IMG/VR virus record: IMGVR_UViG_3300046331_000424
Location: 1 to 44,730 of that record
Origin: a virus
Length of the DNA: 44,730 nt
Direction: 5' to 3' (one strand)
Shown: positions 1-44,115 of the stretch, piece after piece
How positions within the stretch are numbered: the first letter of the stretch is position 1
How the letters are laid out: the number at the start of each line of letters is the position of its first letter
The notes under the pieces: model-generated
Seen by the model: only the letters and a program-made list of their open reading frames with translations
Databases searched by the model: none
What the model was told of the DNA's origin: nothing
Translations under genes and position numbers: made by a program

Positions 1-183
1 GTCTAATCTTGTTGCCAAAGCACGCATCAAGCGACTTTCATCGGTTTCATTGGCATCAATGGCAGCAGGTAAAACCAAAGGCTTGCCAATCTCTCCAATG
101 AACACTTCGGTAACTAAACCATCGCCCTCGATTAAGCAATCAAGGCGATTAAGTTTTCTTGCTTTTTTGTAGCAGGTATTCAT
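1..183 (-). CDS. Partial unknown protein, cut by the window edge
   Basis: An open frame of 61 codons starts with ATG at 183 and runs off the left edge, so the C-terminus is missing. The visible N-terminus is basic (MNTCYKKARKLNR) and is followed by a mixed stretch with no motif I recognise. It is separated from the nuclease gene upstream by a terminator hairpin, so it probably has its own promoter (a weak candidate lies at 197-225). It continues the leftward direction of the late genes. No function is assigned. Confidence 0.55.
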   Translation of the reverse strand, partial: MNTCYKKARKLNRLDCLIEGDGLVTEVFIGEIGKPLVLPAAIDANETDESRLMRALATRLD

Positions 184-5700: not shown

Positions 5701-5799
5701 TCCAGTAATTTGTCCACCAGATGCTTCGGAATCGCTGTTAATACCTACATATTCACTTTTGCGGTCAAAACTTTCCGCTTCTCTAAGAATTTGTGCCAT
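2716..5799 (-). CDS. Large tail adhesin: CBM6-like module plus Ig-like repeats
   Basis: A 1027-aa protein. Residues 5-127 (AESFD..., GEWIEYDI, then NLDRFGYEP) match the pattern of a family 6 carbohydrate-binding module, a beta-sandwich that binds polysaccharide. The rest is a chain of Ig-like beta-sandwich repeats; four close copies lie at about 631-708, 712-790, 798-876 and 880-955, each with a GTxVAGxxIKVYK-like strand and a GNYxFxxxESGKxES end. Looser repeats lie at 130-305 and 450-524. The C-terminus has a separate short domain with two cysteines. By position it belongs to the distal tail. A surface-glycan adhesin is the best reading; no enzymatic motif is seen. Confidence 0.75.
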   Translation of the reverse strand: MAQILREAESFDRKSEYVGINSDSEASGGQITGNLGNTGEWIEYDITQVAEGETSVVAYVKRTSLVDTNVIARLTVDGSEYEVEVPSTSGIFPITFENVWFPQGTTPMRISGVTGVAFNLDRFGYEPVQMPKLTISVGGGVGEKPIDTEFDGAYIYLESTDAQAFEVWRDGVKITTIEQVNSTTYQTMIAGTYKFKAIWGDGYEDSDFTGDLILFVMPSPTVSLDRTSINSANPTATATLTRTKPNVTSFQIFKLINGNYDYAGQRPVTNGGATYPITQVGTYKFAQVQAGVRTPLSLSTAYEITQGSNPPQPLPNVGLDVPIKAWNDQQGDLRAILMGHGSSPQPFYDLWFDYGYIMEVYKNNQLYLKYDITDGDTASSTGVYTTELLNNAGSTGSAGKKHDDGSFLFTAGAGDYGTYKFRLGKRTGNFEDFSAFSANFVYSAPVSQVTAPTVLHTSRNLVQKTDITIPFTGQMELWKNNVLLETISVTQGTHYFNPYEVGTYKFRMKDGANYSEFTSEVVYNYSPHSFNPVVSDPKQVGTPIVFSFTQDFSVTGESLVGSLGFGLRVRNLTTGAWTTVAQNGLTAQNTVSWTPTVVAEDGYQYDLFWGINNVGSHFDFMVNDVPISSALPIVTTVSPSLTEQTINGTGVAGSWIKVYKENVFAFQVSVNGSGAWSITPQTSGNYYFSQEESGKPESAKTAVSVVNQSQSPMPLIENTAPFYVDMIISGQAIYDAVVKVYKNGVYLETLPPQASDGSFGFIPTSTGSYQFTRTDVDRTESEKTNAISVTNAPLLVSAVPVVSTASPQFTGTAINGTGVAGATIKIYKNDVHLTNVIVDGNGNWSYTPNVDGNFTFSQTESGKTESAKTSGFVVNAIIAPSAPVITSGLNGQIGTAITGTISEAGTVLVFKDGNQISTIPNQTTSFIYTPQSTGNYTFKLQVNSLVSAFSGNVLVPNTYEYDATFNGSCGNVLEYAISTSIALVSDSGLVWQSSKTFSVLPSTQYFLHCREVNNHSVSKTVQVTTLP
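2935..3909 (-). repeat. Four tandem Ig-like protein repeats in the adhesin
   Basis: Four units of about 78-80 residues share the strands ...GTAINGTGVAGATIKIYK-like and NGNWSYTP-like, and an ESGKxESAKT end. DNA identity is moderate, so the repeats are old or under recombination. A further copy occurs in the small membrane protein at 34482-34790. Confidence 0.7.
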
Positions 5800-5825
5800 T
5801 CTTTTAAAATTTTAAAGGTTTACAA

Positions 5826-6320
5826 TTAAACTTCTTCTAAAACTACGTCCAAGATTGGATTTTCGTTTACATCTTCAACCAGTTCTTGTTCAGATTCGTC
5901 CAGTTGGTCGGGAGTTGCAAACTCTTCGTTTTCGGTATTTGGTTGAGGGATTCCGCTAACGCTCGGACTTGTGGAAAGGATAGGCGGAGTAGTAGAGCCG
6001 CCAGTAATAAATGGCTTTCCACCAATTACGCTACCATCAACTACGCCTTTTTTCTTGAAAGACACAAAAACAATAACACACGGTGCTAATGGGTTTGGTA
6101 CAATTTTTTGCAGATTACCAAGGTTAAATCTTCTCGGTTCTGAAAACTCTTTGTTGTCATTTTTCCTTTTGGCAACGTAGAGTTTTGAGTTTGTACCAAC
6201 ATTATCAAAAACCGTTGCGGATTGAAAAGGCTGTGCTGTTGAGCCATTTTCATCTTTCAACCCAAAATCATAGTCATTTGGATTGAAGCCATTTTTTAAA
6301 ATAATCGTTGCTTTTACCAT
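5826..6320 (-). CDS. Unknown small tail protein
   Basis: 164 aa from the ATG at 6320 (MVKATIILKNGFNPNDYDFG). The frame extends back to 6455 but that part would overlap the upstream 617-aa gene by 70 bases, so the internal ATG is chosen. The N-terminal 90 residues look like a compact beta domain. The C-terminal half is Pro/Thr/Ser-rich and then very acidic (DQLDESEQELVEDVNE), probably a disordered tail. It sits between two large tail proteins. No family recognised. Confidence 0.6.
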   Translation of the reverse strand: MVKATIILKNGFNPNDYDFGLKDENGSTAQPFQSATVFDNVGTNSKLYVAKRKNDNKEFSEPRRFNLGNLQKIVPNPLAPCVIVFVSFKKKGVVDGSVIGGKPFITGGSTTPPILSTSPSVSGIPQPNTENEEFATPDQLDESEQELVEDVNENPILDVVLEEV

Positions 6321-6385
6321 TGTTAAAAAAATTAAAGTTCGGCTACAAAAGTAACCGAACTTTGATGTTATAAAAAGATTTTTTA

Positions 6386-8239
6386 TTAAACTGTTACCGT
6401 TATACTGCCAATGTAAAAAACGTTGCTTGTAGCCGTCTTTTGACGTGCAAAACAATGGTATGTTCCTGCTGTCAAGGCGAACTGTTTGTATTGGTATTGA
6501 ACACCGCCACTCGTAACCTCACTTGTTACACCTCCTGTCGAGATTAATTGAACCGTTCCATCTCTATCAACCCAGTTTGTAGGTTGTGTCGATTGAGCAT
6601 TACTATAACCAAATTGCAAGATTTCATTTGTGCAACCTGTGCCATCAATTTTGGCAGGAATGCGAACATTTTTAGTTGTTCCGCCTGTGGTAGCATTTAC
6701 AGTCCAATTTACTGAATGGTCAGAAACTGTTTTGCCACTTACTCCTAAAGTCGCATAATAAGTTCCTGCAACTGTTGGAGTATAGCTCCAAGCAAAAGGC
6801 GAACTTGTTCCTGTCTGAACAGTTGCTACAAGTTGATTGCTTGAATTGAAAATTTCGATAGTTCCTGCTTCGGGTGCAACTCCGCTAAATAAAACGCCTA
6901 CTGTACCAGTTGTAGCATTTGGAATTGGCTTTCCTGCTTTTACAGATATTTTTTTGTAAATATTTCCATCTTTTGTATATCCTACTGGCGTAGCGTAGGT
7001 TGTGTCAAAAGCCATTCCAACGTCTTGACCAACTAAACAATCTACCATTGCATTAGTAATGCCACTTGCAAGCGGAAACTGCATAAACAAGTTTCTACCT
7101 CTCGCTTCAAACCAAAGTGGAGTTAAATCTGTGTCTCGCTTTAAGATTTTCAGCAAATGGTAGCCTGTATTTCCCTCTAAATCCCAAGATTCTAATGGTT
7201 GATTTGCAAAAACACCATTTGAGCCATCGCTTGCATTATTCCATGTAGAAAATAGCTTTTTATTGATAACTGCCGAACAATCCAAAGAACTTGTAACATT
7301 TACCGTTACCTCTGCGGTTTCTGCTGTTGGTGATACTACACCACCTCCACAATCATTGTAAATTCGACACTTATACGTTCCTGCATTTGTCGTAGTAAGA
7401 TTGCTTACGGTCAAAGTTGCATTTGTAGCGTTTGGAATTTCAAAAAAACCGTCCTTAATCCATTGATACCTTAAAGCTGTACCTGTTGCCGATGCTGTTA
7501 ATGTAATAGATTCTCCAACCAACTTATTTAGTGTACCTGTTGGGCTTATGCTCAACGCTGTTGGACTTGCACACGCATTTGAACCCGAATTATACCAATA
7601 GTTAGTTTCCTGTCCATTTGCAGTTGCCCATGTAGCCGTATTTGGTAACACGATTTGGTTTCCTGCCGAAATAGTAGGATTATTCCAACGAATGTTACCA
7701 CCCGAATAATCTAATTGAAAAAAATCTGCACCATAATCTATTCCATTGTTAGGGTTTACAGGTGTCATATTACCATTTGACTCTAAGAAAACACAATTAC
7801 AGTTAATTTTCCACCAACTATTCGCAACGGATGAGGCTTTAAATCTCATAATAGTTTTTTGTCCACCTATCAAGGTTTTATGCAATTTCACGCTACTTCC
7901 ATCAACCGAACCATTACCATCTACCATTCCTGTTGGAAAAGAATTGATATTGTTTGTATTTGTTGTATCGCCATTCATAACGATTATTTGCATTGGCAAC
8001 CTATTTAATGACAAATTGTATATTCTAAATTCAATTATATCATCAACATTAACTACGATTCCATTTCCTGTATGGTTATCGTCGCCATGAACTCCGCCAT
8101 CTTTGTTCCATTGTCTTCTAACAAGGGTGTCATTCACATAGAGTTCGAGCAAAATACTTGCTCTTTCATCCATATTTTCACTAATACCTATTTTATTTGT
8201 CCAAGTCAGCGACTTGTTTGGTACACCTAAATTATTCAT
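6386..8239 (-). CDS. Tail protein with Ig-like domains
   Basis: A 617-aa protein. Residues 225-315 form an I-set-like immunoglobulin domain: a Leu-rich strand, RYQWIKDG around the core Trp, and NAGTYKCRIYNDCGG at the second-Cys region. Residues 430-515 contain a second beta-sandwich (PEAGTIEIFNSS..., WSYTPTVAGTYYATL) resembling the repeats of the 1027-aa adhesin. Residues 1-220 and 515-617 are beta-rich and unassigned. Ig-like domains on tail proteins commonly give weak carbohydrate binding. Host-surface contact is inferred from this and from its place among tail-tip genes. Confidence 0.65.
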   Translation of the reverse strand: MNNLGVPNKSLTWTNKIGISENMDERASILLELYVNDTLVRRQWNKDGGVHGDDNHTGNGIVVNVDDIIEFRIYNLSLNRLPMQIIVMNGDTTNTNNINSFPTGMVDGNGSVDGSSVKLHKTLIGGQKTIMRFKASSVANSWWKINCNCVFLESNGNMTPVNPNNGIDYGADFFQLDYSGGNIRWNNPTISAGNQIVLPNTATWATANGQETNYWYNSGSNACASPTALSISPTGTLNKLVGESITLTASATGTALRYQWIKDGFFEIPNATNATLTVSNLTTTNAGTYKCRIYNDCGGGVVSPTAETAEVTVNVTSSLDCSAVINKKLFSTWNNASDGSNGVFANQPLESWDLEGNTGYHLLKILKRDTDLTPLWFEARGRNLFMQFPLASGITNAMVDCLVGQDVGMAFDTTYATPVGYTKDGNIYKKISVKAGKPIPNATTGTVGVLFSGVAPEAGTIEIFNSSNQLVATVQTGTSSPFAWSYTPTVAGTYYATLGVSGKTVSDHSVNWTVNATTGGTTKNVRIPAKIDGTGCTNEILQFGYSNAQSTQPTNWVDRDGTVQLISTGGVTSEVTSGGVQYQYKQFALTAGTYHCFARQKTATSNVFYIGSITVTV

Positions 8240-24169: not shown

Positions 24170-24544
24170 TTACTCGTCTATTGCGAAAATGATTAGACCA
24201 GTATCTCCCCATACTTTTTCAGCTACACACTTCCAAACGGCTTTATCATCTTTCAATACTGAATCAAGGACTGCTTTTACTAAGTTGTCAATGTCGGGTT
24301 TTTCTTGGTGAGGTTTTCCTCTTAATAAATCCCTTTTCTTTATTTTATAGCTTTTAGGAAAAGGCAGAACAAACCTAACCCTTAAAACTCCATCGTTTAA
24401 ATTAATCTTGTGCTTTTCATATTGCCTAATTAATTCGTCTTTAAACTCATAGTATCGTAAAACACAATCTCTTTTATCCCATTTATCCCTTTGGGTCATT
24501 CTTGGCTTTCCCATAGGGTTTAATTTTATAGTTACAAATCTCAT
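24170..24544 (-). CDS. rusA: RusA-like Holliday junction resolvase
   Basis: A 124-aa protein, near the usual length of RusA. KPDIDNLVKAVLDSVLKDD carries the conserved Asp residues and Lys of the RusA active site, and GKPRMTQRDKWDKR is the typical N-terminal basic region. It resolves branched DNA during recombination or before packaging. It sits inside the head gene cluster, after a terminator and just before the promoter of the scaffold unit. Confidence 0.85.
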   Translation of the reverse strand: MRFVTIKLNPMGKPRMTQRDKWDKRDCVLRYYEFKDELIRQYEKHKINLNDGVLRVRFVLPFPKSYKIKKRDLLRGKPHQEKPDIDNLVKAVLDSVLKDDKAVWKCVAEKVWGDTGLIIFAIDE

Positions 24545-30987: not shown

Positions 30988-31833
30988 TTACTTACCTTTT
31001 TTCTTTGGTTCTTCGTTCGATGGTTCGGGTTCTTGATACTGTTTGAGTGAATCAATGTGAGCGATTGCATACTCTGCTAATCTAAGAATAGCCGTGCCAT
31101 TTGATTTAATGTTTTCGACTTTCTTAACACGTCTTAGAGCATCAGCGAACTTATCATAAATTTCAAGTGGAGCAAGATAAACAGACGTTCCGCTTTGGTA
31201 AGTTAGGAATTGCTCAATGTCTTTTACAGTTTCATTGAATCGTTCCTCATCTTCGGGTAAGAAAGTAATTGCTATGTTCTTGAACGAACCGATTTTAAAG
31301 TTTAGTGATGAGTAGTTTATTTTCTCTATCTCGGAGTTAAGACCGCTTTGAATTTTGTACTCAATACTTTTGATTTCCTCGAATAGTTCTTTGAGAACAG
31401 TTTCATCATCTTTTCCTACGAGAGCATTATGGCTTATCTGTTTAGAGCGTAATTCATCTTTTCCTCCTTTGAGGTCGATAACCATGATTAAGATATATTC
31501 TACACCTGCGGAGCGACAAGCATCAATTCGATGGTGTCCGCTAATGATTCCGAACTTTCTTTGTTTAGGTTCAGCGTTTTCATCTTGCTTTACTTCATCG
31601 TTTTCCTGTGATACTTCATAGGCAAGCGGAGTTCCTTCCAGTCTTTTATCGTTTTTGATATTTTGGACGAGTTGGTTAAATGTTTGCACATCGAAGTATT
31701 GAGCATTTTTCTTTTGTGCAAGGCATTGTGAGGGTTTCACAATTTCTAAACGAGCAAATCCCATGCTTACGAGCAAAGGATTCAATTCTTCAAGTTTGGC
31801 TTTCGCCTGTTCGATGTTAGTTAAATCAATCAT
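30988..31833 (-). CDS. ParB/sulfiredoxin-like domain protein
   Basis: A 281-aa protein. FGIISGHHRIDACRSAG (residues about 93-110) matches the GxHR-type signature of ParB-like domains, and the N-terminal LEIVKPSQCLAQ is the usual preceding strand. The middle (LRSKQISHNALVGKDDE) is as seen in phage ParB-like proteins beside modification genes. Its start overlaps the stop of the methyltransferase-like gene by 8 nt, so the two are translated together. In this setting such proteins are thought to act as nucleases or DNA-modification partners; the reaction here is unknown. Lys-rich C-terminus. Confidence 0.75.
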   Translation of the reverse strand: MIDLTNIEQAKAKLEELNPLLVSMGFARLEIVKPSQCLAQKKNAQYFDVQTFNQLVQNIKNDKRLEGTPLAYEVSQENDEVKQDENAEPKQRKFGIISGHHRIDACRSAGVEYILIMVIDLKGGKDELRSKQISHNALVGKDDETVLKELFEEIKSIEYKIQSGLNSEIEKINYSSLNFKIGSFKNIAITFLPEDEERFNETVKDIEQFLTYQSGTSVYLAPLEIYDKFADALRRVKKVENIKSNGTAILRLAEYAIAHIDSLKQYQEPEPSNEEPKKKGK

Positions 31834-33199
31834 AAAGTTCTGAACTGTTTTGTATGTGAGAATCTTTTTTTACCCAATGCTTTAAGGCATCACGGTAGGT
31901 GTCAAAAATATTTTTCTTGTTTTGATAAACCAGTTTGTTTTTAAAGAAACCATCGTTTTCTTTTCTTTCATGCAAATCGAAGAAACCTCTGTACTTCATC
32001 GAAACGGCTGCATTAGTAAATACGATTGTCGTAAATCCATCGTGATGCCACATAGTCATATCATTGAAGTCTTTCAATGTTTCCTTAGTACAGCAAAGGT
32101 ACATAATGAGTTTTGATAATCTCTTATACTTTGAGTGTGGACAAGCTGGGTCAGAAATGATAACCGCAAGGCTATTACCGAAACGCATAGCGTCCATGAT
32201 TTGAAATAAGCCGATTAGCTTGCCATCAATGAAAATCAAGAACGGAGTACCTGCATCTTTCATTTCAGCTTTCTTTACCCACATAAGGCGGTAATGGTTA
32301 GCAGTCTTTCCATCAACACGCACAACTTTGATTTCTGAATTTTCAGTTATTTCATCTTCAATGCCGATGGTTCTGAAATTAGGCTGACTTTCCTTTACAG
32401 GATTGAAGCGATTAACAAACAACTTAGAATCCTCCTTATTGGTGTAAATGCAGTAAAAGCCATTCGACTTGTATTGATGCTTGAACACAAGATTGAAGTT
32501 TTCGGGTAAATAGTCTATTGGCTCATTGGTACGGTAGAATACCTTGCAACCTCTCTCGGATAAGTCAATAAGGTTTTGCAGTTTCACTTCATCAGTCATT
32601 TCAGTATAGAAAGGCTCTTCATACTTGAAACATTCCTGCAAAGGTCGGTACTGCTTTTCATAATCTCCAAGTATTACTGGGGGGTCATAGAAAACAAAAT
32701 CATTTTCTTTGCAGTCATTGAGCAACTGAACGCCACAAGTACCTTTGAAATCGAAGTTGCCGAGGTTTTCCTTAAAGCCTAAAATCTTCTTTTCGATGTC
32801 TTGATAATAACGCTGCTGATTCTTTTGCACCTCAACATTCATGTTCTTGTAATATGGAACATGGTTCTTTTTTAAGTTCTTGGCAACTTCATTGAAGAAA
32901 ATTACACCAATAGCCAAACTAAGTGGGTCAGTCTTGCTTAGGAAATAATCGAATTGCTGAATATGCTCTGCATCGGAGTAGGTAAGACCAAAGTCTTTTT
33001 CCATAACACCGAAACCAATGGCCATAGAGTAAAGCGAAACATCGGTACTAACCACATGGATATTTTTGTCAATAAGTCCGCAAAGCTGGCTCACTACAAA
33101 GTTACCTGCAAATGGCTCATACACCTTTTGTGTGCCATAAGTCTTGATTTCGTTAAAAATCCATTGGCTTATGATGGGTGGAGTTGTTCCAAAAAACAT
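31826..33199 (-). CDS. Adenine methyltransferase-like domain fused to a Mom/GNAT-like domain
   Basis: 457 aa from ATG at 33199 (MFFGTTPPIISQW); the longer frame begins at a TTG inside the DUF488 gene. Residues 1-250 resemble a D12-class N6-adenine methyltransferase: motif I YEPFAGNF (27-34), STDVS (51-55), and motif IV FYDPPV (170-175). The catalytic motif reads DPPV rather than DPPY/F. Residues about 300-440 have GNAT-like features (LIFIDGKLIGLFQIMD, PHSKYKRLSKLIMYL, VFTNAAVSMKYRGFF), which recall the Mom DNA-modification protein. A DNA modification role, possibly with the overlapping ParB-like gene, is inferred. The Mom likeness is from memory of the pattern and needs testing. Confidence 0.55.
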   Translation of the reverse strand: MFFGTTPPIISQWIFNEIKTYGTQKVYEPFAGNFVVSQLCGLIDKNIHVVSTDVSLYSMAIGFGVMEKDFGLTYSDAEHIQQFDYFLSKTDPLSLAIGVIFFNEVAKNLKKNHVPYYKNMNVEVQKNQQRYYQDIEKKILGFKENLGNFDFKGTCGVQLLNDCKENDFVFYDPPVILGDYEKQYRPLQECFKYEEPFYTEMTDEVKLQNLIDLSERGCKVFYRTNEPIDYLPENFNLVFKHQYKSNGFYCIYTNKEDSKLFVNRFNPVKESQPNFRTIGIEDEITENSEIKVVRVDGKTANHYRLMWVKKAEMKDAGTPFLIFIDGKLIGLFQIMDAMRFGNSLAVIISDPACPHSKYKRLSKLIMYLCCTKETLKDFNDMTMWHHDGFTTIVFTNAAVSMKYRGFFDLHERKENDGFFKNKLVYQNKKNIFDTYRDALKHWVKKDSHIQNSSELYD

Positions 33200-33213
33200 A
33201 GGTCTATAAACGA

Positions 33214-33246
33214 TAAAAACTAACGCCTTTGTTTTAGCGTTAGTTT
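33214..33246 (-). terminator. Terminator after the DUF488 gene
   Basis: A 10-bp stem AAACTAACGC/GCGTTAGTTT (33217-33226 with 33237-33246) with a 10-nt loop, then a minus-strand T run. It separates the DUF488 gene from the methyltransferase-like gene, whose ATG is only 15 nt beyond. Confidence 0.75.
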
Positions 33247-33266
33247 GGTTAAAAATATGACTGATT

Positions 33267-33674
33267 TTAGAAGAGTGAAGCCTGTTCAACTACTGGCTTT
33301 TTAGGCTCAACTTTCTTTTCGGGTTCGTAAAACTCTTCTACTTCATACCCTGCATCATTAAGCCATTTAGCAACTAACTGGCGATGGCAAAAGTCTGTTG
33401 GAACTTCAAAGCAAAGGAGGGCTACATCTTTGCCAAAACCTAAGCCTATTGCTTTTTTAACGATTTCGTGAGGGTTGAGTTTATCTAAAATTTCTTTTTG
33501 GAATCTATCGCTGTATTGAGGGTTTTCCATGTGTAGAATCTGCTTAGTTGGTGCAAGTTCTTTCATCATGTTGCCTTGGTAATACTTAGGCGGATAGATT
33601 GAAATAGCAATCGGAACAATGTCATGTTCGCTTAACTTTCTTAGTTTTCCGTAGTAGGAGGTGTAAATTTTCAT
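33267..33674 (-). CDS. DUF488 family protein with C-terminal clamp-binding-like peptide
   Basis: A 135-aa protein. LLCFEVPTDFCHRQLVAKWL is the hallmark Cys-His-Arg segment of DUF488, and SIYPPKYY lies in the N-terminal part. The function of the family is unknown. The last five residues are QASLF, which fits the bacterial sliding-clamp (DnaN) binding consensus QL[SD]LF at positions 1, 3, 4 and 5. The start overlaps the upstream stop as ATGA. It is near the modification genes but ended by a terminator. Confidence 0.75.
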   Translation of the reverse strand: MKIYTSYYGKLRKLSEHDIVPIAISIYPPKYYQGNMMKELAPTKQILHMENPQYSDRFQKEILDKLNPHEIVKKAIGLGFGKDVALLCFEVPTDFCHRQLVAKWLNDAGYEVEEFYEPEKKVEPKKPVVEQASLF

Positions 33675-35483: not shown

Positions 35484-35891
35484 TTAAAATAAATTTAGTT
35501 GTTTTTTATTAATTTGTCGAGTAGCCTTGTGCTGTTCTTTGTCATGGTCTAAGTGGCAACGTTGGCACAATGCTTTTAGGTTTGAATAATCATTATTGCT
35601 AATGTCATGGTCGAGGTGTGCAACCGTTAAAACAATCTTGGTAGCTTTTTTGAGTATTCTGCCATCTTTACCGATATGGTGTTTTAGCAAATCATCAAAT
35701 AAATCAATTCCAAATTGTTCAAGTTGGCTTTCGATAAACTCCCAAGTGTAAAACGTTCCATCTTTTGCTCGATACCCTACTAAATGGTTTTGTAAGCCAC
35801 AAAGTTCGCATTTGTGTTCTGCTCGTTCTAAAATGGCAGGTCTGATTTCGCTTTTCCAGTTAGCAGGGTATTTCGAGTAATCGCACGGCAT
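35484..35891 (-). CDS. HNH endonuclease with C-terminal clamp-binding-like peptide
   Basis: A 135-aa protein. Cys28/Cys31 (CELC) and Cys109/Cys112 (CQRC) form a zinc site. VAHLDHD (90-96) supplies the catalytic His pair, and SNLKALCQRCH the Asn-Leu and final His of the HNH motif. The last five residues, QLNLF, fit the DnaN-binding consensus QL[SD]LF well. The start overlaps the 410-aa gene stop as TAATG. It is in the same operon as the C5 methyltransferase and the Spo11-like protein. Target unknown; no intein or intron context is seen. Confidence 0.85.
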   Translation of the reverse strand: MPCDYSKYPANWKSEIRPAILERAEHKCELCGLQNHLVGYRAKDGTFYTWEFIESQLEQFGIDLFDDLLKHHIGKDGRILKKATKIVLTVAHLDHDISNNDYSNLKALCQRCHLDHDKEQHKATRQINKKQLNLF

Positions 35892-37123
35892 TAGTTAAAT
35901 CCTTTTGGTAAATACTGGGAGTCCATCATTCTTTTGGAGTTAAACAAGATGCTCGATAACGGAAACATCTTATCAGTTTCTCTATCTTTGCAAATCTTAG
36001 CGGCTTCTTCCTTGGTAAATACATGAGCCTTGTCGATGTCAGTAGTATAACCATTATTGTTATTTAAACGCCAATAACAAATATTACCTACATAACGCTC
36101 TGAATCTTGAACAAGCCATTGGTCGCATTCATCGGGGTCGGATTCGTCTCTATCAGTTTCTTGCTCTAAATTGATTGCAACGATAATTTCAGCAAACTTT
36201 TTCAAAAATACTTCGTGGTGGTAAAACTCTCCATCTTGCGGAGTAACCAGTTGCTTGAATGGCTCAAAAGTAATAGAGAAATAAAAACCATTTCTAACTA
36301 AGGTAATCAAGTCGCAGGTTAGTGTCATAACCTTATCATCATTGATTCTTTGGAATAGTTCAAGTTCAATACTATCCATGTTTTGATGAATTCTATCTAA
36401 GTCAGAATCTAAATCCTCAAAGTCGATAAAACGCATATTGCTGTGAAACATTCCATAGATGAAATAAACTTCTAACAATCGCTCTTTGATGCTAAATATT
36501 GGGTAAAGGTCGTGGCTTTCTTTTCCTCTGAAAAAACTAATGTCTTTTGGATAGCCGAGTTTTTGAATGGCATCTTTAAGACCGTAGCAGGATTCTTTCA
36601 ACCAAGTACCATCGGAGTGAACACGCTTGCCTTTATACTCGTAAATCTTAGTGTATCTATCAAGCGTTTCATCTTTTTCGATAAACTCAAAGCCGTATTT
36701 CTTTAAAATACAATCTTTTCCAAAATCGAAACTTTCGGCTCTTGGGTATTCTACTGGTTTGTAGGCAATAAGGAACTCATAAACGTTTTGGTGGATATAC
36801 ATAAACGTTAGATGCTTATCAACGTAATCCTCCCATTCTGCACCACTTTTATCGGGGCTATAACCTAACAAGTAGGTGCAAAATTCTTCAATAGTGCAGT
36901 CGAATACCTTTTCGACAATTTCTGTACTGGGATTCTTTACAATATCTTCAATTTCTTGATAGCCATTGTAAGTACCAAAGATTGGAGGTAAGGCAGCCCA
37001 ATAACCCGAATAAATCATACCGCTATTGTGTTTTTGGGCTTTTCTTAAAGGGATAACAACACATTTCATGCCTTCCGAAATGGTTATTTTTGAGTAGGAG
37101 CAATAAACAGATGAATGACCCAT
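35891..37123 (-). CDS. Unknown 410-aa protein coupled to the Spo11-like gene
   Basis: A 410-aa protein, TAATG overlaps at both ends (with the Spo11-like gene at 37123 and the HNH gene at 35891). It is rich in aromatic residues and acidic in the C-terminal half (EQETDRDESDPDECD); the end has VGNICYWRLNNNNGYTTDI and a Lys/Glu helix. No catalytic motif is evident and I recognise no family. The tight coupling makes it a likely functional partner of the neighbouring genes. Confidence 0.65.
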   Translation of the reverse strand: MGHSSVYCSYSKITISEGMKCVVIPLRKAQKHNSGMIYSGYWAALPPIFGTYNGYQEIEDIVKNPSTEIVEKVFDCTIEEFCTYLLGYSPDKSGAEWEDYVDKHLTFMYIHQNVYEFLIAYKPVEYPRAESFDFGKDCILKKYGFEFIEKDETLDRYTKIYEYKGKRVHSDGTWLKESCYGLKDAIQKLGYPKDISFFRGKESHDLYPIFSIKERLLEVYFIYGMFHSNMRFIDFEDLDSDLDRIHQNMDSIELELFQRINDDKVMTLTCDLITLVRNGFYFSITFEPFKQLVTPQDGEFYHHEVFLKKFAEIIVAINLEQETDRDESDPDECDQWLVQDSERYVGNICYWRLNNNNGYTTDIDKAHVFTKEEAAKICKDRETDKMFPLSSILFNSKRMMDSQYLPKGFN

Positions 37124-38181
37124 TATTTACGAGAATTTATAAGTGATAAAATTTCTTTCTTGTCTTTTTCTTCTTGGATAAGGCATTTATCAAAAGCATC
37201 AATGTCGATTATACTTTCAATAGCTTCAACTAAAATAGCATTGAGCGTTTCGGGGCGGAGAGCATCAACCTCCCAACTTGATTTGCCGTACTTAGCAATG
37301 TATTCTTTGGCTCGTGGGTCGTCCACTTTGGCAGGGTTTGGTGGAGGGTTGTAAGATTGTATCTGCTCCCAAGTTAAAGCGATTGGCTTTATCTGAAAAT
37401 ACTCTTTTAAGATGCCTTTTCTGAAATTAAATTGAGGGTCATCATCAGAACCATTGTAAACATCAAACAAGCTATCATCATCGCCAAACTTATCTAATAT
37501 TTCATTAAACTCTTCCGTAAAGCCTTTTGTAGAAATGCCATCAACAAAACAAACTTCTAAAAAGAACTGAATAAAATCATCGTCATTTAGAATAAACTCA
37601 TAAAGTCTTGATTCAATATCTCGAATCATATCTTTTCCGCTTGGGTCATGGTCGCCTAAATACAAGATGCTGCATTTCTTACCACTTAGCAACTTGGTTT
37701 TAAACCGCTTGTAAGAATCGTACATTGATGAAGCTGAACTGTAACCACGATTAACAAGCAAGTAAACACCGTATTTATTTGTTACACGGCTTAAAACACC
37801 GCTTAGGGCATCTTTCTCAATCCATACCTCTATATTGCTTGACTGGTTTTCTGTTCTATCTCTACGGTAGTATTTGTGCGAATCTGTGAGGGCATCAGCA
37901 ACATCATAATTGAAGTATGGACGTTTGGGAACTCTTACCCTATCTTCGATGGCTTCCCAGTCAATCATTCCACCCATTCGGCACTTAGTAAGCAAATCGC
38001 CTAATTTGTTGTATTCTTTTACATCGTTCGGTATAAAATCTCTCGAAACTAATTGATAGTACAACTGTCGTAAAGTCAATTTGTAGCCTTGATTTAGATA
38101 CTCGTTGATAATTAAATCAACATTCTCAAACATCGCTTGGCTTTTGGTGTTGAGTTTTATCTCTTTAAATTTTTCTTTCAT
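37123..38181 (-). CDS. Spo11 / Topo VIA-like TOPRIM protein (mini-A-like)
   Basis: A 352-aa protein. Residues 36-43 read TLRQLYYQ, like the catalytic tyrosine motif (Arg-x-hydrophobic-Tyr-Tyr) of Spo11 and topoisomerase VI A; Tyr42 is the candidate nucleophile. A TOPRIM fold follows: WIEKDAL (120-126) with Glu122, RGYSSA (145-150), and YLGDHDPSG (174-182) with Asp177/Asp179. SSWEVDALRPETL (301-313) resembles the conserved late motif. It would cleave DNA by a tyrosyl intermediate. No GHKL ATPase subunit (VI B) is seen nearby. Stand-alone VIA relatives (mini-A) have been described in mobile elements. Activity is inferred. Confidence 0.7.
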   Translation of the reverse strand: MKEKFKEIKLNTKSQAMFENVDLIINEYLNQGYKLTLRQLYYQLVSRDFIPNDVKEYNKLGDLLTKCRMGGMIDWEAIEDRVRVPKRPYFNYDVADALTDSHKYYRRDRTENQSSNIEVWIEKDALSGVLSRVTNKYGVYLLVNRGYSSASSMYDSYKRFKTKLLSGKKCSILYLGDHDPSGKDMIRDIESRLYEFILNDDDFIQFFLEVCFVDGISTKGFTEEFNEILDKFGDDDSLFDVYNGSDDDPQFNFRKGILKEYFQIKPIALTWEQIQSYNPPPNPAKVDDPRAKEYIAKYGKSSWEVDALRPETLNAILVEAIESIIDIDAFDKCLIQEEKDKKEILSLINSRK

Positions 38182-42945: not shown

Positions 42946-44073
42946 TTAGGCAGTTTTTGGTTTCTTGGTTGCTTTTGGTGCTGATGGTACGGTAGGAACG
43001 GTTTCAACTGGCTTTGCTTCTTCGGCTTTTTCTTCGTTTTTTTCTTCGGCTCTTTCTTCAACTGCATTTTCATCTAAAAAAGAAACAATTTTTTCGCCTT
43101 GATAAACAGCTTTGAAACCAAGTTCTGATGCTTTCATTTTTATCATTTCCCAAATGTCATTGAGGGCAGTTAGAACAAATAATTTCTTTGCTCTAAATTC
43201 TCTAAATTCATCGAAAATAACATTTATATCAAGAACCATTTCGACATTAGCAATCTTTTCTTGATACTCTGAAATTTGCTTTTTGTACTCTGCATATACT
43301 TTCGAGTTTGCATTTACGCTTTGTCTGTAATCGTAAATAATATCATCTACGGTTTTTTCTGATGCTTTAAATGTTACTGGGAGGTTGCAAGAATTTTTGC
43401 CGTAGTAATCTTCTTGTGGCGTAAATCCTAAAACAGATTCATCATTTACAATCTGCATATAACCAATGAAATCGGCTTCTTTGGTAATTAGTGAACGGCT
43501 TTGTCCTGCGATGTCGGGGCGTTTACGAGTTCTATCTCCCTCTTTTTCTTCTTTCTCGTGAGCAATAAAAATGATGTTTTTATTGTTGTTGAGGTACTTC
43601 TTTTTGAAAGCGATAAACTCCTGTCCTAATGCTCCCCAACCCTGTTGCGATAAATCTCCATTACGCTTGACATTTTTCGCATCAACTGTTTTTACATAAT
43701 CTCCTGCCATTTCCATCATCTTTGAAACTGAATCAAAAATTAGGGTGTCGTAATCGGCAAACAATTCCAAATCAGCTTCCATAAATCTTTGCCAAACAAA
43801 ACGACCATCGGGTTCTCCTTTTTCGACAATATTACCTTTGGCATCTTTTTGGGGTGGTATTGGTGTCATGTCCAAAAAGGTAATTTCTTCGCCTTTGCTG
43901 TCCAGTCGATGATGCCCCATTACACGAATTAAACCATCTTCAAAGTCAAACAGTAAGGGCTTGTTTGATTTGATTGCCCAAGATGTTTTACGAACACCGG
44001 GCTGTCCGTACACTAATACAACAATTCTTTTGATTGTCATAGGGTCATTACCCTTTTTAAAAATTAAAGCCAT
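42946..44073 (-). CDS. Sak4-like RecA-fold ATPase
   Basis: 375 aa from ATG at 44073 (MALIFKKGNDP); the longer frame starts at a TTG. Residues 23-30 are GQPGVRKT, a Walker A with Arg where Gly is usual. LLFDFEDG and DYDTLIFDSVSKMMEM follow (Walker B region), then IIFIAHEKEE and RKRPDIAGQS, the family layout of phage Sak4/RecA-like single-strand annealing partners. The C-terminus is acidic and Ala/Lys/Pro-rich. Works with SSB or a nuclease in recombination. The unusual P-loop may reduce ATP use. Confidence 0.75.
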   Translation of the reverse strand: MALIFKKGNDPMTIKRIVVLVYGQPGVRKTSWAIKSNKPLLFDFEDGLIRVMGHHRLDSKGEEITFLDMTPIPPQKDAKGNIVEKGEPDGRFVWQRFMEADLELFADYDTLIFDSVSKMMEMAGDYVKTVDAKNVKRNGDLSQQGWGALGQEFIAFKKKYLNNNKNIIFIAHEKEEKEGDRTRKRPDIAGQSRSLITKEADFIGYMQIVNDESVLGFTPQEDYYGKNSCNLPVTFKASEKTVDDIIYDYRQSVNANSKVYAEYKKQISEYQEKIANVEMVLDINVIFDEFREFRAKKLFVLTALNDIWEMIKMKASELGFKAVYQGEKIVSFLDENAVEERAEEKNEEKAEEAKPVETVPTVPSAPKATKKPKTA

Positions 44074-44115
44074 TGAATGAAACAATTAAAAGTTAAAAAA
44101 TAAAAATAAAATAGT

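Follow-up and report, generated by a model that had tools for sequence, protein, structure and literature searches.

The stretch of DNA considered in the present work (hereafter the window) is a linear viral record of 44,730 bases, without end repeats and possibly incomplete, in which all the long genes lie on the minus strand. It is a phage genome carrying a terminase gene and a RusA-type Holliday junction resolvase gene (24170..24544, minus strand; PF05866, E 1.2e-12); thus, the gene analysed here is virus-encoded. The latter occupies positions 37123..38181 of the minus strand, as an open reading frame that begins with an ATG at 38181, ends with a stop codon at 37123 and codes for a protein of 352 amino acids; the plus strand across the same interval contains many stops. 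The same minus-strand gene run includes a gene coding for a Sak4-like single-strand annealing ATPase (42946..44085; PHROG 124, E 1.1e-34; AAA_24, E 2.4e-34), which, like RusA, is given here as context and not as a proven partner.

The gene overlaps by one base, at its end, with another one (35891-37123) coding for a 410-residue protein; the only family match of this protein is confined to its last ~75 residues (PHROG 2457, function unknown), and no homologue of it was found beside the other relatives of the 352-residue protein. Moreover, the region 31826-33289 encodes a single protein that carries a phage DNA adenine methylase-like domain and, after it, a phage GNAT-like one (PF22555 and PF22559), and a DNA/RNA non-specific endonuclease (PF01223, E 5e-44) is located at 300-950, near the beginning of the record. 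The search for close relatives by means of the terminase retrieved one fragment only, a viral contig of 24.9 kb (IMGVR_UViG_3300046330_000375) whose terminase is 100% identical to that of the window; it belongs to a near-identical virus or is a piece of the same one, and lacks the part corresponding to the gene under study.

The original prediction had described the gene product as a Spo11/topoisomerase VI A-like protein. The comparison with PHROG retrieved a single family, 6247 ("DNA topoisomerase"), with an E-value of 3.1e-85, and the tblastn search matched 76 phage records, among which that of Pseudomonas phage NP1 (E 1e-48, 34% identity over 95% of the length). The NP1 protein is the drawn example of "Mini-A", a name given to truncated Top6A homologues of archaeoviruses and bacteriophages (PMC7614492); the name has been used in reviews since 2021, the family is covered by three of them (PMC7614492, PMC8185306 and PMC8084294), and one review calls its function unknown. 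The homology to NP1 Mini-A also bears out the naming of the protein as a stand-alone mini-A. The two proteins share the catalytic residues, are both phage-borne and lack a B subunit; that of NP1 is about 300 residues long, and the greater length of the one analysed here (352) is due to an insertion at about residues 197-260 (37402-37593, minus strand), a variable stretch inside the TOPRIM region.

An alignment-guided scan confirmed at least 592 relatives in viral contigs and retrieved 153 from contigs of prokaryote genomes, mostly bacterial, with a few labelled as archaeal MAGs. The family is common in phages, where its annotation is "DNA topoisomerase". In the Nipunavirus record of Pseudomonas phage PIP, the annotation splits Mini-A and several of the genes around it into pieces, owing perhaps to sequencing errors or to decay. 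The family is said to have been defined by Takahashi et al. in 2020, and a C-terminal motif reportedly sets it apart from both topoisomerase VI and topoisomerase VIII; the motifs PPPNPAK..D.R and SWELDAL are family-wide and occur in the protein of the window. Judging from its sequence and predicted structure, the gene is a real and ordinary member of the known Mini-A family, with little that is new.

Models from Pfam, NCBIfam and PADLOC did not give any convincing match to the protein. Furthermore, nothing useful was obtained by probing Pfam and the PDB with the protein as a single query, nor from a profile search of PDB sequences or a Pfam scan of 17 family members; since these searches were uninformative, structure and profile–profile comparison were required. 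The full AlphaFold2 model, built from 139 family sequences, reached a pLDDT of 91.5 and a pTM of 0.87, and the first three Foldseek matches were all topoisomerase VI A chains, with modest E-values (3.6e-3 and above). In the VIA-align comparison, where all the matches of the full model fell on the TOPRIM part (residues 108-324; 37210..37860, minus strand), the best one was topoisomerase VI A 1d3y (Z 8.4, 140 residues, 2.8 A), followed by Methanosarcina mazei Top6A 9o0g (Z 8.1), the Wadjet nuclease JetD 8b7f (Z 7.5) and Spo11 8uru (Z 6.5).

Since these matches covered only the TOPRIM, a separate model was built of residues 1-112 (pLDDT 90.7). The resulting model contains a predicted winged-helix DNA-cleavage domain (residues 10-82; 37936..38154, minus strand), for which 1d3y was again the best among the chains compared (Z 7.9, 69 residues, 2.2 A), with residues 11..82 placed on 72..143. 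The offset is a constant 61, so Tyr42 falls on residue 103 of 1d3y, which is the catalytic tyrosine of M. jannaschii Top6A. The fold by itself is not decisive, given the middling Z-scores and the fact that other winged helices score up to Z 7.0; the weight of the structural evidence lies in the agreement of both predicted domains on topoisomerase VI A, together with the register of the tyrosine. The comparison with topoisomerase VI A and Spo11 that had been proposed as a check therefore yielded a predicted winged helix with its tyrosine beside the TOPRIM.

The protein has the motif RQLYYQ at residues 38-43, WIEKDAL at 120-126 and GDHDPSG at 176-182, in agreement with the original numbering of Tyr41/Tyr42 and Asp177/Asp179, which was correct. 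To assess conservation, 180 sequences with 31-56% identity to the protein were aligned. Tyr42 (38056..38058, minus strand), whose variation among homologues had been named beforehand as a refuting observation, is invariant (180/180); position 41 is occupied by Y in 166 sequences, by F in eight and by H in six. Hence, of the two tyrosines originally put forward as catalytic, Tyr42 stands as the candidate nucleophile, since it is invariant and Tyr41 is variable. A similar arrangement appears in the active-site model of mouse SPO11, where Tyr138, the second of two tandem tyrosines, lies at the metal site (PMC11922746). The putative TOPRIM metal ligands are equally conserved, with Glu122 (37816..37818, minus strand) and Asp179 found in all 180 sequences and Asp177 in 179, the remaining one having a gap (Asp177-His-Asp179: 37645..37653, minus strand). 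Taken with the PHROG match and the 76 phage records, this nearly complete conservation places the observation well outside what chance would produce. Mini-A thus carries the type IIB catalytic set, consisting of the winged-helix tyrosine, the TOPRIM glutamate and the DxD motif.

For the profile–profile comparison, 28 Top6A sequences of a single archaeal phylum gave too weak a result, and 60 archaeal sequences from two phyla were used instead. In this case, hhalign aligned the two families in one uninterrupted stretch, with P-values of 1.3e-4 (local) and 7.7e-8 (global, probability 92); opposite LTLRQLYY, the WIEKDA strand and LGDHDPSG of Mini-A stand, respectively, the archaeal STLRELYY, the AIETGGM strand and FTDGDPWS. 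In an ungapped block scan, the YY (6.3 sd) and DxD (4.2 sd) blocks ranked best at the hhalign registers, and the Glu block was at rank 3. The counterparts in M. mazei Top6A are Arg102, Tyr106, Glu202, Asp254 and Asp256 (PMC13040014), of which Glu202 corresponds to Glu122 and Asp254/Asp256 to Asp177/Asp179; the equivalents of all five are invariant across the 60 archaeal sequences.

In M. mazei Top6A, an electrostatic clasp between Arg102 and Glu342 keeps the tyrosine off the DNA (PMC13040014). The counterpart of the clasp arginine in the window is Arg38 (38068..38070, minus strand), conserved in 180/180 sequences and placed, with the same spacing, four residues before Tyr42. The possible counterpart of Glu342 is Glu304 (37270..37272, minus strand), also invariant (180/180) and embedded in the SWELDAL motif, whose ExxAL resembles the surroundings of Glu342. 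An alignment of the C-terminal profiles alone did not return a Glu304–Glu342 match and the block scan placed Glu304 on Glu342 at rank 2 only, for which reasons we can only infer the clasp assignment. Moreover, the residues preceding the arginine are 38 (median) in Mini-A versus 83-103 in Top6A. The winged-helix latch loop corresponds to residues 44-67 of M. mazei Top6A (PMC13040014), and this shorter N-terminus therefore implies that the latch-loop region is missing. In summary, Mini-A shares with archaeal topoisomerase VI A the predicted winged helix and TOPRIM, the catalytic Tyr, Glu and DxD, and the Arg at -4, and differs from it in the shorter N-terminus, the lack of a B subunit and the distant sequence similarity.

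The VI B subunit of topoisomerase VI belongs to the GHKL ATPases. Neither PF02518 (HATPase_c) nor PF13589 (HATPase_c_3) matched anything in the 44,730 bases, whereas both matched in all of the 14 control genomes; the original statement that the window lacks a GHKL gene is thereby upheld. Since the record is linear, without end repeats and maybe incomplete, this absence is proven for the record and not for the whole virus. As for the other Mini-A records, PF02518 was absent from 24 out of 25, the exception being a record of 177 kb, and PF13589 from 36 out of 37, the exception being a sub-threshold match in the record L013. The latter harbors, at 5738-7204, two genes upstream of Mini-A, a GHKL-like protein of 488 residues with the sub-threshold HATPase_c_3 match and an HExxH-like motif near the C-terminus. 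Two relatives of this protein were found, one in another contig, within a stretch that has no Mini-A, and one in an unannotated phage of 485 kb; the gene is sporadic, and the few relatives found are not tied to Mini-A. A similar difference separates Mini-A from topoisomerase VIII, which is likewise a type IIB relative of mobile elements but unites A and B (GHKL) functions within a single protein or operon; no GHKL match was obtained in the 352-residue ORF or elsewhere in the record.

The neighbourhood of Mini-A is variable. Among 162 loci, no gene family directly beside it recurs in more than six, and the PHROG tallies of 140 adjacent versus 108 distant genes did not reveal any dominant partner. 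In NP1, the gene order is ligase, small ORF, Mini-A and Sak4, with a Cas4-type exonuclease nearby, and in the Nipunavirus phages Mini-A is located between the DNA ligase and Sak4; the gene of the window, in contrast, has neither the ligase nor Sak4 as a neighbour. In NP1 and in Pam3, Mini-A lies among replication genes. Mini-A is present in each of the 18 records whose DNA polymerase shares 91% identity or more with the NP1 enzyme; it is missing from the entire records of the two phages that come next in polymerase identity, namely Pseudomonas phage MiCath (66%) and Sphingomonas phage MMDA13 (61%). In MMDA13, the ligase directly adjoins a Sak4 that is 75% identical to that of NP1, and in MiCath the gene directly after the ligase codes for an AAA ATPase without BLAST similarity to NP1 Sak4. 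The replication module therefore works without Mini-A, which behaves as a cassette and is an accessory gene rather than a required component of the replication machinery.

In vitro, mouse SPO11 acts alone: it forms dimers whose active sites are hybrid, the breaks that it makes are linked to protein, and it is able to reseal nicks (PMC11922746). Mini-A shares with Spo11 the A-type fold, and differs from it in being viral, in lacking meiotic partners (Spo11 forms meiotic breaks together with a VI B-like protein, for which no gene was found here) and in a structural score below that obtained for topoisomerase VI A. No cleavage assay for any Mini-A was found in the literature consulted; by homology to SPO11, the protein most likely does likewise without ATP. 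According to this model, two copies would probably dimerise through the TOPRIM domain on duplex DNA that is bent or supercoiled, and the Tyr42 of each winged helix would attack one of the two strands within a hybrid active site, where Glu122, Asp177 and Asp179 of the other copy hold the metal, so as to become covalently joined to the 5' DNA ends. Neither ATP nor a B subunit would be needed for the cleavage; since there is no GHKL gate, ATP-driven passage of a duplex is not expected, and the reaction would yield breaks or nicks linked to protein, or DNA relaxed through cutting and resealing.

The likeliest use of such an activity might be to supply breaks that feed the phage's own recombination, here through the Sak4-like annealing protein and the RusA resolvase. 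This role is favoured because of the Sak4 and exonuclease neighbours in NP1 and of the Sak4-like and RusA genes in the window. The link is not a general one, in that just 11 of the 49 virus records with Mini-A gave a Sak4 match (E ≤ 0.001), roughly half of these matches being weak, and a general association between Sak4 and Mini-A was accordingly discarded. The proposal as a whole, i.e., a homodimer performing covalent DNA cleavage free of ATP and B subunit, the breaks feeding recombination, and an accessory gene, is in our opinion rather probable.

A different outcome of the same chemistry is that Mini-A is an ATP-independent relaxase or swivel, cutting and resealing DNA so that supercoils are relieved while the phage replicates, the breaks being only transient. 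Relaxation without ATP is known for the topoisomerase VIII of Microscilla marina (PMC7614492), and both the resealing ability of SPO11 and the placement of Mini-A in NP1 and Pam3 fit this idea; the phages with related polymerases nevertheless manage without Mini-A, and strand passage would lack the control of a B subunit, so that we consider a relaxase unlikely, albeit worth keeping in mind. A more elaborate version of the break-making proposal, in which Mini-A is a minimal and self-sufficient Spo11-type phage break maker that needs neither ATP nor partner, is restrained by an Arg38–Glu304 clasp and starts recombination, appears doubtful.

Mini-A might also rely on an unrecognised host or phage partner in place of topoisomerase VI B. 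One such partner could be encoded by the GHKL-like gene found in L013, and host GyrB or ParE is, as a matter of general knowledge, always available; against this stand the lack of a recurrent neighbour and the fact that Mini-A is devoid of ~55 N-terminal Top6A residues, the latch-loop region included, which makes a substitute partner distinctly unlikely. It is improbable, too, that Mini-A is a nuclease weapon cutting host DNA or that of competing plasmids or phages, as JetD of Wadjet does. The accessory, cassette-like distribution would suit a weapon and JetD is among the best structural matches in the TOPRIM, but JetD works with the JetABC SMC complex, whereas no SMC or kleisin was recognised among the neighbouring genes searched and no PADLOC model matched; moreover, every homologue has the winged-helix tyrosine, a residue for which a plain TOPRIM nuclease would have no use. 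Finally, a catalytically dead DNA-binding relative, as its sole annotation in Microbacterium phages, "DNA binding protein", might suggest, is hardly credible in view of the invariance of Tyr42, Glu122 and Asp179 in 180 sequences down to 31% identity.

The value of the finding lies in a testable question rather than in novelty. Mini-A is a widespread phage family that no Pfam or NCBIfam model covered in these searches, and the demonstration, in 2025, that SPO11 cleaves alone makes the role of a VI A without VI B directly testable on small phage proteins. If Mini-A cuts alone, it would represent a convenient model for break formation and its control.
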